From positions 1-43,766 of the IMG/VR virus record IMGVR_UViG_3300032245_000671: 43,766 nucleotides of DNA; one strand, written 5' to 3'. The DNA comes from a virus. Positions 2,429 through 15,454 of the stretch are shown here, one piece after another. Every line of letters starts with the position of its first letter. Position 1 is the stretch's first letter. The position numbers were made by a program, and so were the translations under genes. The notes beneath the pieces were generated by a model, which ran no database searches, was not told the DNA's origin, and saw nothing but the letters and a program-made list of their open reading frames with translations.

Positions 2429-3385
2429 TCAGATGATGTTGAGCGTGGTGCTGTTGAACAGGCTCTGGCTTTCCTCAACTCGCTTTTGAGCGATGGCGAC
2501 ATACTCGGGGTTGAGTTCGCATCCGAGGAATGACCGTCCGTGGCGCAGAGCGACTACACCAACCGTTGCCGACCCCATGAAAGGGTCAAACACTGTGTCG
2601 CCGGGGCGCGACGAGGCGAGGATGCAAGGCTCTACGAGGGCTTCGGGCATCACGGCGAAGTGCGCTCCTTTGAACCTTGCAGGAGGGATTGACCACACCG
2701 ACCGTTTGTTTCGTCCTTTGGGGTTGACAAAGCGTGACCCCATCTCGGCAACATCAATGCCACCTTCTGTTGTCTTTGCCGAGGGGCGATCGGTTTTCCA
2801 TGCGTGCTTGGAGCGTTCAAGACTGACTTGGGACACTGGTTCAAAGATTGCCTCGTTGTCGTAGTAGTACCTTTGGCTCTTTGTCAGCATGAAAAGGTAC
2901 TCGTGGCTTCGTGTGCATCGGTCTTTTACCGACTCAGGCATCACGTTGGGCTTTTGCCAAATGATGTCTTGCCTCAAGTACCAGCCTTCTGCTTGGAGTG
3001 CGAACGCCAAACGCCACGGGATGCCAACTAAGTCTTTGGGCTTCAATCCTTCGGGGACGATGGCTGAGTGTTTGTGTTCAAGGTGGCGTTCGTTGTGCTT
3101 CTTGCCGATGTTGCCAGCAGTGCCTTTGCCACTGCCAGAGTAGGAGTCGCCGATGTTGAGCCAAAACACTCCGTCGTCAGCGAGCACTCGGTAGACATCC
3201 ATAAACACTTCAACAAGGCTCGCGACAAACTCGTTAGGGTCTTCCTCTAAACCGATTTGCAGGTCTTGACCGTAGTCACGCAGTCCCCAATACGGTGGGC
3301 TGGTGATGCAGGTTTGGATGGAGCCATCGGGTATTTCTCCGAGGCGCTCGCGCACATCTCCTAGTAGAACGTTTGCTTCGGTCAT
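2429..3385 (-). CDS. DNA methyltransferase, class beta (N4-cytosine or N6-adenine type), copy 1
   Basis: A 318-residue amino-methyltransferase. The catalytic motif IV is TSPPYWGL at residues 28-35. The S-adenosylmethionine-binding motif I (FDPFMGSATVG) is near residue 264, followed by GCELNPEYVAIAQ. This order, catalytic motif first and binding motif last, defines the beta group. SPPYW occurs in both N4-cytosine and N6-adenine enzymes, so the methylated base cannot be assigned by eye. The start overlaps the stop of the paralogue upstream as ATGA. No restriction nuclease lies nearby, so this looks like a solitary phage modification enzyme, probably for protection against host restriction. Confidence 0.9.
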   Translation of the reverse strand: MTEANVLLGDVRERLGEIPDGSIQTCITSPPYWGLRDYGQDLQIGLEEDPNEFVASLVEVFMDVYRVLADDGVFWLNIGDSYSGSGKGTAGNIGKKHNERHLEHKHSAIVPEGLKPKDLVGIPWRLAFALQAEGWYLRQDIIWQKPNVMPESVKDRCTRSHEYLFMLTKSQRYYYDNEAIFEPVSQVSLERSKHAWKTDRPSAKTTEGGIDVAEMGSRFVNPKGRNKRSVWSIPPARFKGAHFAVMPEALVEPCILASSRPGDTVFDPFMGSATVGVVALRHGRSFLGCELNPEYVAIAQKRVEESQSLFNSTTLNII

Positions 3386-4368
3386 TTGACAATCCTTACT
3401 GTGTTGAACATCGGGTCGGATGCTGTGATGCGTCTTTCAGCGATGTCGGCGTAATCGGGGTTTAGTTCAGTACCAATGAAGCACCTCCCGAGGCGTAAAG
3501 CAACGACTGCCGTTGTGCCAGCGCCAGCAAAGGGGTCAAGCACCAAGTCTCCAGCACGACTGGACGCGAGGACGCATGGTTCAACTAATGCTTCGGGCAT
3601 GACTGCAAAGTGGGCATCCTTAAATGGTCGCACAGGGATTGTCCAGACGTCGCGTTTGTTTCGCGTCCCGTCCTCAACGGTGACAGATGGTTCGGCGATC
3701 GCCGTGTCATCAAAGAAGTACCTGCCTGACTTGGTCAGCATGAAAACGTGCTCGTGTGATTTGGTGCATCGGTCTCGGACTGACTCAGGCATGGGGTTTG
3801 GTTTGTGCCAGATGATGTCTTGGCGAAGGTACCAGCCGTCGTCCTGTAATCCAAAGGCGAGTCGCCACGGGATGCCGACGAGGTCTTTGGGTTTGAGTTT
3901 GTCCCACATTGGTTTGGCAAACGATTTAGTTGCATGACGCTTCGCACCGACGTTCTCGTTGGTGTTGCCGACCTTCGCCCCGTTGTATGTGTCCCCAATG
4001 TTGAGCCATAGCACCCCGTCCTCCCTGAGAACTCGGCGCACGTCGCGAAACACAGCGACCATTTCAGCGACATAATCGGCAGGGGTCGCCTCAAGCCCTA
4101 TTTGAGCATCAACTCGTTCAGCGCCACAATCCTTGCATGAGTCCTTATAGATGCCGTCACCAGTTGAGACGTCGTTTTGGAAGCCTGTCACGGACACCTT
4201 GCTTTCTCGTTTGTGCAGGCAGTCGGGGTTGCCCCCAATCCATGAGGCTGTTCCGTAGTCCCTCAAACCCCAATAGGGAGGACTGGTCACAACGCACTGC
4301 ACCGAGTTGTCAGGTATCTCGGCAAGGCGTGCACGCACGTCGCCCACGAGGATGGTGGCTTCAGTCAT
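3382..4368 (-). CDS. DNA methyltransferase, class beta, copy 2
   Basis: A 328-residue paralogue of the following gene: both begin MTEA, carry TSPPYWGLRDYG at residues 28-39 and share VGIPWRLAFxLQ and AHFAVMPEALVEPC blocks. The SAM motif is LDPFAGAGTTAVVAL near the C terminus. Unlike its neighbour it has an insert after the catalytic motif with Cys and His residues (CLHKRESK ... CKDCGAE) that could bind zinc or form part of the target-recognition region. The ATG at 4368 overlaps the upstream stop (TAATG). The reading frame is open further upstream, but that part looks unlike methyltransferase and overlaps a better gene. Two tandem copies suggest duplication followed by change of target specificity. 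Confidence 0.9.
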   Translation of the reverse strand: MTEATILVGDVRARLAEIPDNSVQCVVTSPPYWGLRDYGTASWIGGNPDCLHKRESKVSVTGFQNDVSTGDGIYKDSCKDCGAERVDAQIGLEATPADYVAEMVAVFRDVRRVLREDGVLWLNIGDTYNGAKVGNTNENVGAKRHATKSFAKPMWDKLKPKDLVGIPWRLAFGLQDDGWYLRQDIIWHKPNPMPESVRDRCTKSHEHVFMLTKSGRYFFDDTAIAEPSVTVEDGTRNKRDVWTIPVRPFKDAHFAVMPEALVEPCVLASSRAGDLVLDPFAGAGTTAVVALRLGRCFIGTELNPDYADIAERRITASDPMFNTVRIVK

Positions 4369-4604
4369 TAGTTGTTTTCCTCTTTGGGCTTGGTCAGTTC
4401 CTGCAACCGTTCCCACATGGAGCGAATGGCTCCTTCGCTGGAGTCTCGGATGCCTGACCAGTCGTAGCCTTGCTCTGGGACGTAGCCCTGCTCGCCGTAG
4501 CCATCGGACTCTGCCCAGAGCGCCACGAGCGTTTCGGTGGATGAGTCCACGTCGTTCCACGCCTTGTGGATTGCCTTCAGCATTTCGTCAAGGTTGATGC
4601 TCAT
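4368..4604 (-). CDS. Hypothetical acidic protein (78 aa)
   Basis: A small acidic protein starting MSINLDEMLKAIHKAWND, coupled at both ends (ATGA with the HTH gene upstream, TAATG with the methyltransferase downstream). It has an N-terminal helix, a Gly/Tyr-rich middle (GYGEQGYVPEQGYDWSG) and a C-terminal helix. No family recognised. Its position between a DNA-binding protein and two methyltransferases may mean it belongs to the modification module. Confidence 0.6.
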   Translation of the reverse strand: MSINLDEMLKAIHKAWNDVDSSTETLVALWAESDGYGEQGYVPEQGYDWSGIRDSSEGAIRSMWERLQELTKPKEENN

Positions 4605-9577: not shown

Positions 9578-10804
9578 TTACGACACCTTTTCGGCTGTTT
9601 GCCCTGTGTGGTCTTCCCACCGTTTGATGATGACGTCGGCGAAGCGAGGGTCAAGTTCAATCATGCGTGCGTGGCGTCCTGTACGTTCGCAAGCGATGAG
9701 GGTTGTTCCTGAACCACCAAACGGGTCAAGGACAAGTTCTCCAACTTCACTGGAGTTGTGGATGGCTTTTTCTACCAGTTCCACAGGCTTCATTGTGGGG
9801 TGAAGGTCGGACTTGCGAGGTTTGTCTACGAACCAGACGTCGCCTTGTGAGCGATCGCCATGCCATTTGTGTCCTGTTTTCTTGTTCCAGCCGTACAGGA
9901 TTGGTTCGTACTGACGGTGGTAGTCGGAGCGTCCGAGGGTAAATGTGTTCTTTGCCCAGATGATAAAGGTTGACCAGTGTCCACCTACGGCGAGCCATGC
10001 GCGTTGCAGTGTGTGAAGTTCGCTTGACGACATGGCGAGGTAGCACCCACCTTCGGTGAAGTTCACGATGTTCTCGCAGGCGTCGTGAAGGAAGGCGTAG
10101 AAGTCATCACCGAGGTTGTCGTTCATGATTTGCTTTTTGGTGACGTTGTCGTTGGCTGACTTGTAGTTGACGTTGTATGGAGGGTCGGTGAAGCACATCT
10201 TGGCTTTGCCTCCTTCTAGCAGTTTTTCGTAGGACTTAGGGTCGCAGGAGTCGCCGACGAAGAGACGGTGGTTGCCAAGTTGGTAGATGTCGCCTGTTTT
10301 GGTTTTGGGTTTTGCTGGTGGTTCGGGGATTTCGTCTGGGTCGGTTTTGCCGTCGTACTTGTCTTTCTTGGCGTTGTCCGACAGGAGGGTTTTGAGGTCT
10401 TTGGGTGTGTACCCCGAGGCTAGGAACAGGTCGTCGTCAATTTTGAGTTCTTCTAACAGTTCAGCAAGGAGAACGTTGTCGTAATTACCGAGGTCGTGTG
10501 TTCGGTTGTCGGCTAGGGCGAAAGCGCGTGCTGTTTTGTCGTCGTCGTCAGTGAAGACCACAGCGATTTCTGTCCATCCGAGTTGTTTGGCGGCGAGGAG
10601 TTGGTGGTTGCCGGCGATGACCATTCCTGTTGGTTTGCCACCTTTAACGGCTTTGTTTCGTTTCGCGACGATTGGTTTGCGTTGTCCGAACTGTTGGTAG
10701 GACTTGGCTACTGCGTCTACGTCACCTCGGCGTGCGTTTTTGTCTAGTGCTGTGAGGTTTTCAATGGGGACGGTGAGACTTTGTAGGTCTTTGGCGATGT
10801 TCAT
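9578..10804 (-). CDS. ParB-domain / DNA adenine methyltransferase fusion
   Basis: 408 residues. The N-terminal ParB/sulfiredoxin-like domain (about 10-140) has MVIAGNHQLLAAKQLG and FALADNRTHDLGNYD. The C-terminal methyltransferase begins with GDIYQLGNHRLFVGDS near residue 171, has motif IV DPPYNV at 207-212 and SAM-binding motif I LDPFGGSGTTLIACE near 359. DPPY and this order indicate a class beta N6-adenine enzyme. ParB-methylase fusions are common in phages and elements. The ParB part may bind or hydrolyse nucleotide, or help DNA targeting. Start overlaps the upstream stop (ATGA). It stands next to the terminase genes, so it may mark DNA before packaging. Confidence 0.9.
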   Translation of the reverse strand: MNIAKDLQSLTVPIENLTALDKNARRGDVDAVAKSYQQFGQRKPIVAKRNKAVKGGKPTGMVIAGNHQLLAAKQLGWTEIAVVFTDDDDKTARAFALADNRTHDLGNYDNVLLAELLEELKIDDDLFLASGYTPKDLKTLLSDNAKKDKYDGKTDPDEIPEPPAKPKTKTGDIYQLGNHRLFVGDSCDPKSYEKLLEGGKAKMCFTDPPYNVNYKSANDNVTKKQIMNDNLGDDFYAFLHDACENIVNFTEGGCYLAMSSSELHTLQRAWLAVGGHWSTFIIWAKNTFTLGRSDYHRQYEPILYGWNKKTGHKWHGDRSQGDVWFVDKPRKSDLHPTMKPVELVEKAIHNSSEVGELVLDPFGGSGTTLIACERTGRHARMIELDPRFADVIIKRWEDHTGQTAEKVS

Positions 10805-11046: not shown

Positions 11047-11303
11047 AGTCCGTTGTCCTTTGCTGGTTGTTGAGTGGGGATTTCAATGTTGAGTGGCTCA
11101 AGTGTCTCTAACGGTTCAAGGAAGGTGCATACCTGCTGGACTTCCTCGTCGTTCATCAAGATGCTGATGTGGGCGAACATTGGCTTGCCGGGTTCGGCTT
11201 GGAGGAGTACGCGCGTGACGCGTTCTTCTGTTAGTCCGAGGGCTTGGCAAAAGGCTGAGCCGGCGTTGGTTCCGTCTACGACGATGCGTTGTTGGTCTGT
11301 CAT
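11031..11303 (-). CDS. Hypothetical protein (90 aa)
   Basis: Starts MTDQQRIVVDGTNAGSAFCQ at 11303, overlapping the ParB-ParB stop as ATGA. It has an alpha/beta pattern: a strand (RIVVDG), a helix, a strand (RVTRVLLQAEPG), then FAHISILMNDEEVQQV and a Pro-rich tail. No family recognised. Confidence 0.55.
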   Translation of the reverse strand: MTDQQRIVVDGTNAGSAFCQALGLTEERVTRVLLQAEPGKPMFAHISILMNDEEVQQVCTFLEPLETLEPLNIEIPTQQPAKDNGLWTPN

Positions 11304-12496
11304 TCTGGGTTCTCCGTTGTCCATGAGCCTTCGGGGAGTCCGAGGCTGGTTGCTATGTGGTTTGGGGTTTCGGCGTCTGTGCGCTTTGCTGACCATGCTG
11401 AGAATTCGGCAGGGCTAACTTTGAACGACCACTTGTCAATTCGGCATCTGACGTCTTTGGTTGGTGTTGGTTTGTGGTCGCGATCGGTTTTGATGTCGTT
11501 GAGAAGGTCGTCTAGGTCGTCTGGGGTGAAACCTGTGCCTTCTAGCGATGAGACATTGGTGAGTAGGGCGAGCAGAGTGGAGTCGTCGTACCCTGAGATG
11601 TCCGAGGTTCGGTTGTCCACGAGGACGATGCGTGTCGCTTGTTCGTCGTCTACGTCAACCCATGCGACGGCGATGTTTTTCCAGCCGAGGTGTTTTGCGG
11701 CGCGCCATGTGTGGTTTCCGACGAGGATTTGGTTTGTTTCGCGTCTTGCCACAACTGGTCGGTACTGCCCGAGGTGTTTGAGTGATTCAACGATTGCTCC
11801 GATGTCGCCTTCTCGGGCGTTGCCGTCAAAGGGGATGAGCGTTTTGATGGGGACTGTTTCCACTTCGGCTGTGACGTTTTCGGGTGAGTGTCGGTCTTTG
11901 GGGTTGGCTTTGACGATGTCGGGGAAACCTAGAAGGGAACGGATGAGTTCTGTGGCGGCGCGTTTTTCCATTTCGGTGAAACGTGAACGCCAGACGTTTA
12001 GTGGGGTTTCGTCTACCCAGAGTTGGTGGATGCCGACTTGGATGGTGGCTTTGGGTTTTGGTTCGGGTGTTGGTTTGGGGTCAGGTTCGTCTACTTCGTT
12101 AAACACGCCGTCAAGTTGGTCAAGGTCTAGTTGTCCGAAGCCTGTGCCGTCTAAATCGGGGAGAGAGTGAAGTAGGGCTGACAGTGCGTTGTCATCGTAG
12201 GAAGCCAAGTCGGATGTTCGGTTGTCAGCGATCAGGATGCGTTCGGCTGTTTGGTCGTCTACTTCTAGGAAGGTGCAGGCGATTGAGTCCCATCCGAGGG
12301 ATTTGGCGGCTTCAAATGTGTGGTTGCCGGCGAGGATGAAGTTAGTGGACTTTTGGGCGACGATGGGTCGGTATTGTCCGTGGTGTTTGAGACTGTCTGC
12401 GATTGCAGGGATGTTGCCTCGGCGTGGGTTTCTCGGGTGGGGCTTGAGTTGTGTTGTTTTGACCAGTTGCGAGGTCACGAGGACACGTTCGGACAT
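11300..12496 (-). CDS. Tandem double-ParB-domain protein
   Basis: 398 residues made of two homologous halves. The first ParB/sulfiredoxin-like domain (about 10-125) has LAGNHTFEAAKSLGWD at 55-70 and IADNRTSDLASYDD at 89-102. The second (about 212-330) has LVGNHTWRAAKHLGW at 258-272 and LVDNRTSDISGYDD at 292-305. After each domain comes a similar short module (residues 151-193 and 348-389) with a Trp/Phe core. Each half keeps the GNHT and DNRT motifs that in this fold bind nucleotide. No nuclease or methylase domain is attached. It is in the same operon as the ParB-methyltransferase, and may have arisen from it by duplication. Function unknown, presumably DNA-related. Confidence 0.8.
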   Translation of the reverse strand: MSERVLVTSQLVKTTQLKPHPRNPRRGNIPAIADSLKHHGQYRPIVAQKSTNFILAGNHTFEAAKSLGWDSIACTFLEVDDQTAERILIADNRTSDLASYDDNALSALLHSLPDLDGTGFGQLDLDQLDGVFNEVDEPDPKPTPEPKPKATIQVGIHQLWVDETPLNVWRSRFTEMEKRAATELIRSLLGFPDIVKANPKDRHSPENVTAEVETVPIKTLIPFDGNAREGDIGAIVESLKHLGQYRPVVARRETNQILVGNHTWRAAKHLGWKNIAVAWVDVDDEQATRIVLVDNRTSDISGYDDSTLLALLTNVSSLEGTGFTPDDLDDLLNDIKTDRDHKPTPTKDVRCRIDKWSFKVSPAEFSAWSAKRTDAETPNHIATSLGLPEGSWTTENPE

Positions 12497-12524: not shown

Positions 12525-12968
12525 TCAGGTTGCTTTGTGGAGGGCTATCCACGCTTCAAGTTCACCGTTGTGGATTGAAAGTGTCTCGTCGTTTTTGACG
12601 ACTCGGTATTGTTGTGGGTCGTTGATGTTTTGCTCAAGTCGGAAATTGCCCTTTGAGGCGATGCCGGGTTTGTTCACAACAACTGTCCAGTTCGGGTCGG
12701 TCACAACGTGCCTTCTTTCGGGTATTGGGGCAATCATGCGTCGTCGTTCGGATGGTGTTGTTCCACCCCTGACTCCGTCGTCTCCCCACACGAGGGAGTC
12801 TTGTAGGCATTGTTGTTTGACGGGGCATTGACGGCAGACAACTTTTGCTTTGCTTTCGCGTCGTGTTCGTTCGGCGTTTGTCTCGTTGATTGGGTATGGG
12901 GGTGGAAAGAACAGGTCAAAACCCATCCCTCGGCATATTGCTTTATCCCACCAGTCTGGTTTGTTCAT
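12525..12968 (-). CDS. WhiB-family iron-sulfur transcription regulator
   Basis: A 147-residue protein with four Cys in WhiB arrangement: C12, C45, C48 and C54 (AICRGMG; CRQCPVKQQC), which bind a [4Fe-4S] cluster. The WhiB turn GVRGGT is at 65-70, followed by a basic SERRRM. WhiB proteins bind the primary sigma factor and alter promoter choice; phage copies can displace the host protein. The C-terminal 70 residues are an extension without Cys that I do not recognise. Start overlaps the helicase stop (ATGA). This gene is the main evidence for an actinobacterial host and is a candidate controller of the unusual promoters in this genome. Confidence 0.9.
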   Translation of the reverse strand: MNKPDWWDKAICRGMGFDLFFPPPYPINETNAERTRRESKAKVVCRQCPVKQQCLQDSLVWGDDGVRGGTTPSERRRMIAPIPERRHVVTDPNWTVVVNKPGIASKGNFRLEQNINDPQQYRVVKNDETLSIHNGELEAWIALHKAT

Positions 12969-14287
12969 TGTCCTTTATTCGCTAACCGAACAAGGAGTTC
13001 ACCGAGGACGCTTTGTTCTTGTTCAGGGTCGGGAATTGTGCCGTCGGTGATGGCGTCCACAATGACTCGTTTGTTTTGAATGAGGTCGTAGATGTCTTCG
13101 TCTACGGTTTCGCTACACAACGCTGTGTACACAGTGACGCTGTCAAGTTGCCCAATGCGATGGCATCTATCGGAGGCTTGGTCTTGATCGGCAGGATTCC
13201 ACCCTTGCTCCATGAAAAGAACATCCGACGCTGATGTCAAAGTGATACCAACCCCTGCCGCCTTGATGGAGCATGAGATAACTTGTTGGGTTTCGTCGGT
13301 TTGGAACTTCTCAATGCACGCTTGTTTTTCGGAGTCCGACATTCCTCCCTGAATACGGCATCCGTCTGCGTACGCTTCGGCAACCCACTCAACGATGGCT
13401 CGGTGCCAACCAAAGACGACGACTTTTTTGCCGGTGGCTGTGAACTCTTTGAGCCATTGGTCAATGGCGTGACGTTTGGCTTCCACAGCGATCTGTTTGA
13501 GTGTGGTGATGGCAACGAGATGTTGGGCTGATTGGGCGCGCAGGGCTTTTTCTCCTGCCGCTTTTCGTGCGCTCTCCGTGTCCAGCCCCGAGGCAAGGGC
13601 GGCGTTGCGTACAATTTCTGCTAGGTAGTTCACGATGTCTTGTTCGGCTTGACGGTATTTAGTCATGACCTTTGGGTCGCCTTCAATCAAGAGTTGGGCG
13701 TACCGTTTTGGTGGTAGTTCAGTTAAGACGTCATCTTTGCGTCGGCGCAGGAAACAACGAGCGCGTAATTGACGGTTCAACATTGGTCGGCTTTCGGGTG
13801 TTTTGAAGTTCAACTTGAAACCCCTCGCGCCTCCGAATTCATTGAGGCGTCCGATGATGCGCAGTTGTGCCATTAACTCGCCGACACGATTGAGGACTGG
13901 CGTTCCCGTTAGGGCAATGACGTAGCCTCCTCGTTCGCGAGCGCCATCGGCGATGGCGACTGCTGATTGGGTGCGTCGTGTTTGTCCGTTCTTGGCGAGG
14001 TGTGACTCGTCAAAGACAACAGCAAATGGCTCTAGTGCTTTGTCCCATGCGTGCAAGGTGTCCCATCCAACGATTGCGATGTCGGCGTCAACTGGATGTG
14101 GTGTTGTTCCGTAGCAGACGGTGACTGTTCGGTGGGGGAGCCAGCGTTGTATTTCATTTCGCCAGTTGAGACGCACCGAGGTTGGCACGACAATGACAGA
14201 AGGGAAAGCCTGTGTTGCTTCAAGGCAGGCGAGCGCTTGTACGGTTTTGCCGAGTCCTTGCTCGTCTGCGATTAGGACGCCACTCAT
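12965..14287 (-). CDS. SNF2/SMARCAL1-type helicase, C-terminal ATPase half
   Basis: 440 residues holding all superfamily 2 helicase motifs: Walker A ADEQGLGKT (7-15), DESH (93-96), a GTP motif in ALTGTPVLN, and DQASDRCHRIGQ near residue 376. It lacks the N-terminal piece of a helicase: it begins exactly at motif I, whereas the preceding Q-like motif (LLPFQRAGV) lies at the end of the upstream ORF. The two ORFs are in the same frame, 11 codons after a UGA. No Shine-Dalgarno sequence precedes this ATG. In related enzymes the halves form one HARP-SNF2 annealing helicase that rewinds DNA and remodels forks. It is thus either made by readthrough, translated separately, or a damaged gene. Confidence 0.85.
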   Translation of the reverse strand: MSGVLIADEQGLGKTVQALACLEATQAFPSVIVVPTSVRLNWRNEIQRWLPHRTVTVCYGTTPHPVDADIAIVGWDTLHAWDKALEPFAVVFDESHLAKNGQTRRTQSAVAIADGARERGGYVIALTGTPVLNRVGELMAQLRIIGRLNEFGGARGFKLNFKTPESRPMLNRQLRARCFLRRRKDDVLTELPPKRYAQLLIEGDPKVMTKYRQAEQDIVNYLAEIVRNAALASGLDTESARKAAGEKALRAQSAQHLVAITTLKQIAVEAKRHAIDQWLKEFTATGKKVVVFGWHRAIVEWVAEAYADGCRIQGGMSDSEKQACIEKFQTDETQQVISCSIKAAGVGITLTSASDVLFMEQGWNPADQDQASDRCHRIGQLDSVTVYTALCSETVDEDIYDLIQNKRVIVDAITDGTIPDPEQEQSVLGELLVRLANKGQ

Positions 14288-14323
14288 CGCAGGAACTCTA
14301 ACGGGGTTAATGAACGGTGGTCA
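14288..14323 (-). other. In-frame UGA and 11-codon bridge splitting the HARP-SNF2 helicase
   Basis: The upstream ORF ends KKQRNA then TGA (14321-14323). The next 11 codons, in the same frame, read PPFINPVRVPA and join without any further stop to MSGVLIADEQGLGKT. Thus one codon separates the two halves. The stop context is UGA-C, which in bacteria is among the leakier contexts. TGA is clearly a stop elsewhere in the window (many ATGA overlaps), so a changed genetic code does not explain it. Confidence 0.85.
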
Positions 14324-15454
14324 AGCATTTCTTTGCTTCTTTCTCCAAACACCATCGGGGCTTGGTTCGTAGTTCAATGCTTCAAGGGCGTAAACCACAC
14401 CTGCTCTTTGGAAAGGCAACAGGGTGCCGTTCAAGGTTGAGATGTTGAGTTCGGCGTCTTTTGCTCGCGACTTGTCAATGCGTGCCAGTTGCTCGTTGGC
14501 TTCCACGAAAATGTCAGCGACGGTTTCATTTGAGATGGCATTGGTGTTTTCAGCAAAAACGGCAACTTCAATGGAAGCCGATCGAGCGACTCGCCAACCA
14601 CCGACAAGTTTGTCAAAGGTTGCTGTCGGAAGGTCGCGAACTTGCTGAACAATGTCTCGGTCGTAGGGGAAACGGATGACAAAGCCAAACTGGTCAATGC
14701 TGATGTCTGGCTCAATAACGGGGTCGGAGTCGGGAACCTCCGTGAAGGCGCTGATGTCAATCCCGAACTGGTCACAGAAGGCAAATACGAGTCGGACGGA
14801 GGAAATGGGGATGACCCAGACCTTTTCGTCGGGGTTCCATCGGCGACCGTTGATTTCCTTCACGGCTTTGATGGCTTCGGGGTTATACGAGAATTTGAGG
14901 TGGAAGCGCGCGCCGTGTTGGGTGAGGGTTCCCGTGACAGGCGCTGTGTCGGGCTGTGTGGCGTGTTCTTGAGTTAGTGCGCTGGTTGCCCCGTCAGAAA
15001 GGGAAAAGCCAAAACGGGCGCACAGGAGGGCGACTTGTGGGGATGAGAAGGCTGGCACTGACCAGACTTTTGTTTCGGCGTCGTAGCGCCTTCCATCTAG
15101 GGTTTTGACGGCTGTGACCAATTCGGGGTCGTAGGGAAAAGCCAGCGCGAAGCGCCCGTTGTCAAAGGTAGCGAATCGGGTGTTGGTTTTTCGGTCGGTG
15201 GACTTTTGAAGTTTTGGTTCGGGGATTGCTTCAATGTCCAGCCCAACGGATGCCAGTTGCTTTCGGTACCGAATGAGGGTGTGCCACGCGTCGGCTATCA
15301 GTTGCTCAGACCAAGACGACGGGTCGGACTTGGCAAGCCGATGACCGAACGCTGAGTCGTTCGCTGAAAACCCGATGCCGTTCGCTTCTTGCGCTCGATC
15401 GGAGTCGTCGTTGGCGAGCGTAACTGCGCAGAGATGGAGGAATTCGGCGCTCAA
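14321..15454 (-). CDS. HARP-domain half of a SMARCAL1-like helicase
   Basis: Contains three similar units of the HARP type: FALAFPYDPELVTAVKTL ... KVWSVP, FHLKFSYNPEAIKAVKEI ... KVWVIP and FVIRFPYDRDIVQQVRDL ... GWRV. HARP repeats bind branched DNA in annealing helicases. The C-terminal LLPFQRAGVVYALEALN matches the motif that precedes helicase motif I. The N-terminal part (NGIGFSANDSAFGHRLA, then WHTLIRYRKQL) resembles the start of other phage helicases of this group. I chose TTG at 15454 because it overlaps the upstream stop (TTGA); the frame is open up to 15508. No good Shine-Dalgarno is visible for either, so the start is uncertain. Confidence 0.8.
   Translation of the reverse strand: MSAEFLHLCAVTLANDDSDRAQEANGIGFSANDSAFGHRLAKSDPSSWSEQLIADAWHTLIRYRKQLASVGLDIEAIPEPKLQKSTDRKTNTRFATFDNGRFALAFPYDPELVTAVKTLDGRRYDAETKVWSVPAFSSPQVALLCARFGFSLSDGATSALTQEHATQPDTAPVTGTLTQHGARFHLKFSYNPEAIKAVKEINGRRWNPDEKVWVIPISSVRLVFAFCDQFGIDISAFTEVPDSDPVIEPDISIDQFGFVIRFPYDRDIVQQVRDLPTATFDKLVGGWRVARSASIEVAVFAENTNAISNETVADIFVEANEQLARIDKSRAKDAELNISTLNGTLLPFQRAGVVYALEALNYEPSPDGVWRKKQRNA

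Follow-up and report, generated by a model that had tools for sequence, protein, structure and literature searches.

Fission of a phage HARP-SNF2 helicase gene between the Q motif and Walker A

Introduction

Within a 43.8-kb virus record, referred to here in its entirety as the window, two minus-strand open reading frames encode between them the parts of a SMARCAL1-like helicase. The first holds HARP-type repeats and the second an SNF2 motor, and the two lie in one frame with only a UGA and 11 sense codons (PPFINPVRVPA, 33 bases) between them. The question raised by this locus is whether the UGA interrupts a single gene or separates two. A preliminary description, made from the letters alone, had recognised this arrangement correctly and offered programmed readthrough, two subunits, a recent mutation or a sequencing error in explanation. 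The terminase of the window is closest to those of Arthrobacter phages (55%). Here we describe the two genes, their split and unsplit relatives and a short reading frame that lies between the halves, which the preliminary description overlooked (Table 1).

The HARP-Q and SNF2 motor genes

The first gene, designated HARP-Q, starts with a TTG at 15454 that overlaps the stop codon of the preceding gene (TTGA) and ends in LLPFQRAGVVYALEALNYEPSPDGVWRKKQRNA at a TGA (14323-14321) which, as originally noted, is followed by C. Three HARP-type repeats had been claimed for it. Pfam HARP (PF07443) identifies one above the cut-off and a second below it, with the third visible only by sequence and predicted fold. 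The C-terminus of HARP-Q carries an SNF2 Q motif (LLPFQRAGVVYAL) and then a beta-hairpin. The motor ORF begins MSGVLIADEQGLGKT, a few codons ahead of the Walker A beta strand, and contains GLGKT, DESH and DRCHRIGQ, corresponding to Walker A, the DEAH-like box and motif VI. HARP repeats are thus encoded N-terminal to the motor, as in SMARCAL1-like helicases, though on a separate polypeptide, and the Q motif and motif I fall on different chains, the former ending HARP-Q and the latter opening the next ORF.

Table 1. Features of the window discussed in the text
Feature	Position	Strand	Description
HARP-Q gene	14321..15454	-	N-terminal helical region, three HARP-type repeats, C-terminal Q motif and beta-hairpin
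PF07443 match in HARP-Q	15056-15151		Above cut-off
Second PF07443 match in HARP-Q	14810-14905		Below cut-off
Mini-ORF	14328-14284	-	MLDHRSLTPLEFLR; 14 codons, in a frame other than that of HARP-Q and motor
SNF2 motor gene	12965..14287	-	PF00176 (3e-24), PF00271 (1e-14); without a Q motif of its own
WhiB-like cysteine protein gene	12525..12968	-	Directly 3' of motor gene, ATGA overlap; family named by eye
DNA methylase gene	2429-3385		Similar to its neighbour (read by eye)
DNA methylase gene	3382-4560		ATGA overlap with the preceding methylase gene (read by eye)
ParB-like gene and ParB-methylase gene	9578-10804 and 11300-12496		Read by eye

No Shine-Dalgarno sequence of the AAGGAG type is found upstream of the motor start at 14287, in agreement with the preliminary description. 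Several genes of this genome that follow a short gap carry AAGGAG or something similar, as non-overlapping junctions often do, and gene overlaps of 1, 4 or ~11-14 bases are common. The stop codon of the motor gene overlaps the WhiB-like gene; a WhiB-like neighbour is also found downstream of the motor in three of the split relatives described below (L003, L015, L017) and in the unsplit L018.

Split and unsplit relatives

Searches of IMG/VR yielded 154 distinct relatives. Approximately 145 are single genes, in which the Q motif and Walker A lie in one frame with a variable loop between them (LFPFQRAGVAYALRSMGYEHQNDGLWERTNDTGNGGILIGDEMGLGKS in L103, for example), and two that look like exceptions (L116, L203) are cut by the ends of their contigs. 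Single-gene homologues, as expected of a functional split gene, are therefore available in L018, L103 and ~140 others. One scan of genome contigs found no relatives in host genomes.

Seven sequences are split: the window itself, L002 (with the fragment L004), L003, L015 (with the identical L016), L017, L102 and L129. Motor identity to the window is 95-96% for L002/L004, 82% for L003 and 70% for L015/L016, falling to 55%, 50% and 49% in the further split lineages L102, L017 and L129, respectively, and at least four metagenome samples besides that of the window have yielded contigs with the split. The two-gene arrangement thus recurs among homologues, but only the window and L002/L004 have the single in-frame stop. 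The HARP frame of L003, which differs from that of the motor, stops at a TAA directly 5' of the AUG of the short reading frame described below; in L015, it ends GTATGA and several more stops follow. The gap of L129 contains a 46-codon ORF with a GUGA start over the HARP-Q stop, and that of L102 contains two ORFs, one of 61 codons followed by one of 69 that shares an AUGA overlap with the motor. L017 has a 41-codon ORF with the Q motif alone, overlapping the motor by GUGA, and no HARP match was detected in its 12-kb record. The gap ORFs of L102 and L129 were considered as homing endonucleases and rejected as such, neither Pfam nor PHROG giving a match above cut-off.

Taken together, the comparison shows a HARP-SNF2 gene, single in nearly all relatives, that has been broken in the loop joining the Q-motif helix to Walker A, with the pieces kept as separate genes. 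It also indicates that the UGA of the window is an ordinary stop marking a real gene boundary common to related phages, its in-frame position apparently being incidental.

Two further differences among the relatives may be mentioned. HARP-Q of L003 (4093-4956) and L015 (3094-3960) is without the N-terminal ~90 residues (the NGIGFSANDSAFGHRLA region) found in the window and L002, and these residues appear to be either dispensable or separately gained. The unsplit L134 (4001-5740), together with L135-L138 and L143, has an in-frame insertion of ~165 residues in the first motor lobe, after GTVILEGTT, which by eye is no obvious intein.

Evolution and selection

In a maximum-likelihood tree of 54 motors, the split sequences occupy two positions, and in both an unsplit relative accompanies them (L018 and L125). 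A topology with all split sequences in one clade is rejected (p-AU 0.004), and no fewer than three changes of state are required, although exact placement is unsure owing to the long branches of L017 and L018. The tree points to repeated fission, or to fission followed by re-fusion. The break sites differ between the clades, lying after the beta-hairpin (PDGVWRKK) in the clade of the window and straight after the Q helix in the other (where the chains end EAMGR or GKPIPEGV), and this fits independent fission events.

Both halves are under purifying selection, as is the Q segment, again as expected of a functional split gene. Against L008, HARP-Q gives dN 0.043 and dS 0.506 (dN/dS 0.085), the motor dN 0.023 and dS 0.497 (dN/dS 0.046), and the Q segment a dN/dS of 0.047.

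Predicted fold

The chain read through the UGA was modelled with AlphaFold2 (38 rows), giving a mean pLDDT of 83.8. Residues 376-386 of the model, which correspond to the break, have pLDDT below 50 and form the least ordered loop of the fold, located between the Q-motif helix (347-359) and the first motor strand (392-395), ahead of Walker A. Solved SNF2 motors align with residues ~333-806 (Z up to 32), so that the HARP chain carries ~45 residues of motor lobe 1. Fold and conservation together suggest that the two chains would assemble into one motor, and of the options raised at the outset that of two subunits is supported.

A 14-codon reading frame between the halves

In the window, HARP-Q and the motor are linked by a mini-ORF whose ATG lies within the final codons of HARP-Q (an 8-nt overlap) and whose TGA overlaps the motor start (ATGA), thus chaining the stop of one gene to the start of the other. 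Mini-ORFs of 14 codons are also present in L002 (MLDHRSPTPLEFAR), L003 (MLDRTSQTPLEFPP) and L015 (MTPLLISTSLELPT), and the residues L-E-F/L are conserved across all four. In every carrier, the AUG touches the HARP-Q stop (ATGCTTGA, TAAATG or GTATGA) and the UGA overlaps the motor start (AUGA or GUGA), so both ends of the mini-ORF show stop and start codons that overlap or adjoin, as in genes coupled by termination-reinitiation. The offset from the HARP frame to the mini-ORF varies, being +1 in the window, 0 after the TAA in L003 and -1 in L015. A rough simulation put the chance of an AUG-started chain at 0.04, 0.03 and 0.23 for the three geometries. Since the lineages are partly dependent, these odds support the mini-ORF but fall short of proof, and in any single lineage the likelihood of such a chain by accident is not negligible.

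These observations suggest a route by which the two halves might be made and used. The first RecA lobe would receive its Q motif in trans from the HARP-Q subunit, and the motor half, which lacks a clear Shine-Dalgarno sequence, would be translated by termination-reinitiation: a ribosome terminating HARP-Q would restart at the mini-ORF AUG, translate as far as the UGA and there restart once more, on the overlapping AUG or GUG of the motor. The mini-ORF would thus act as a relay across the gap, which is the simplest reading of its position. We consider recurrent fission, a two-subunit motor that takes its Q motif in trans and termination-reinitiation through the mini-ORF to be the best joint explanation of the locus, with a probability of roughly 0.8. 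In the window, some in-frame fusion may also arise through a leaky UGA. More tentatively, and in our judgement somewhat doubtfully, the motor could be one that is switchable, or whose stoichiometry is set, through a Q motif supplied in trans by HARP-Q (or, in L017, by the 41-residue Q-only peptide), a 14-codon cistron acting as a dedicated relay to control motor translation.

Alternative explanations

Fission could be real and the mini-ORF untranslated, with the motor either starting by itself or being reached by post-termination ribosomes that scan the 33 bases. A conserved TAGAG 8 bases upstream of the motor start, the sole SD-like element there, is a possible weak Shine-Dalgarno sequence, and in a codon-position test substitutions in the mini-ORF, which is very short and known from few lineages, do not clearly favour its own frame over that of the motor. 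Against this, the length of the mini-ORF, the placing of its AUG at the HARP stop and the overlap of its UGA with the motor start are kept despite the shifts of frame at the HARP end, and lineages that do not have it have other overlapping ORFs in the same place. An untranslated mini-ORF therefore seems to us unlikely.

Programmed readthrough, producing a HARP-only protein and a minority of full-length helicase, was suggested by the preliminary description and is in keeping with the shared frame in the window and L002/L004 and with the leaky UGA-C context. Such a fusion is impossible in L003, L015, L017, L102 and L129, however, where frames differ or further stops or ORFs intervene, and the homologues do not conserve the single in-frame stop and open downstream frame that characterise a readthrough gene. 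RNA structure at the junction is not significant (z -0.9) and there is no suppressor tRNA within the window. We regard readthrough as highly improbable.

A programmed frameshift, or a ribosome bypass of the T4 gene 60 type, might instead join the halves by way of the mini-ORF region, and the gap does contain a conserved stretch (AACCnCnnTAGAGTT). The offset between the halves varies among the relatives, though, and neither a common slippery heptamer, nor take-off and landing codons that match in all, nor a stable structure is present; moreover, the inserts of L102 and L129 are long and have their own ORFs. This mechanism is, if anything, slightly less probable again than readthrough.

A sequencing error, or a private nonsense mutation in the course of gene decay, which the lone stop between otherwise intact halves might suggest, is refuted by the relatives: the arrangement recurs in the other metagenome samples and across the range of identities given above, with dS ~0.5 to the nearest and strong purifying selection on both halves.

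Comparison with known systems

The locus appears to encode a motor of the DNA-repair type that is one chain in most related phages and the product of two closely linked genes here. SMARCAL1/HARP-type helicases, including single-chain phage forms such as Arthrobacter phage Ottawa gp61 (PHROG 62), share the order of HARP repeats, Q motif and SNF2/Helicase_C, and the phage forms of the same family have 42-55% motor identity. Here, in contrast, the HARP repeats and Q motif are on one chain and the motor on another, the break falling just before Walker A. We found no papers on split phage SNF2/HARP helicases in the literature searched. Because this natural SNF2 motor comes in two pieces, cut after the Q motif and before motif I, and can be compared with unsplit relatives, it offers a way to test in trans what the Q motif does. 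The locus also provides a caution, in that a lone in-frame UGA between domains can mark a true gene boundary.

Split phage genes have been shown to be functional in the case of Aeh1 nrdA and the 43A/43B DNA polymerase of phages 25 and 44RR, with T4 topoisomerase a likely further case (PMC2988022). As in those systems, one enzyme gene has become two coding regions. The enzyme is a different one, however, the gap holds a 14-codon or other small ORF in which no homing endonuclease could be recognised, and two clades share a break in this one loop, past the Q motif and short of Walker A.

Termination-reinitiation at AUGA and UGAUG overlaps is established in bacteria (PMC6728339), and similar overlaps of stop and start are seen both where the mini-ORF meets the motor and where the motor meets the next gene; what differs is the 14-codon cistron placed between two genes as a putative relay. 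A synthetic, short nonfunctional ORF just upstream of a gene boosts its translation (PMC13255528). The mini-ORF resembles that design in being short and ending at the start of its target, perhaps with content of little importance, and departs from it in being natural, chained to the stop of the gene upstream and without a strong internal RBS, making it a natural mini-cistron that may hand ribosomes on between successive genes.
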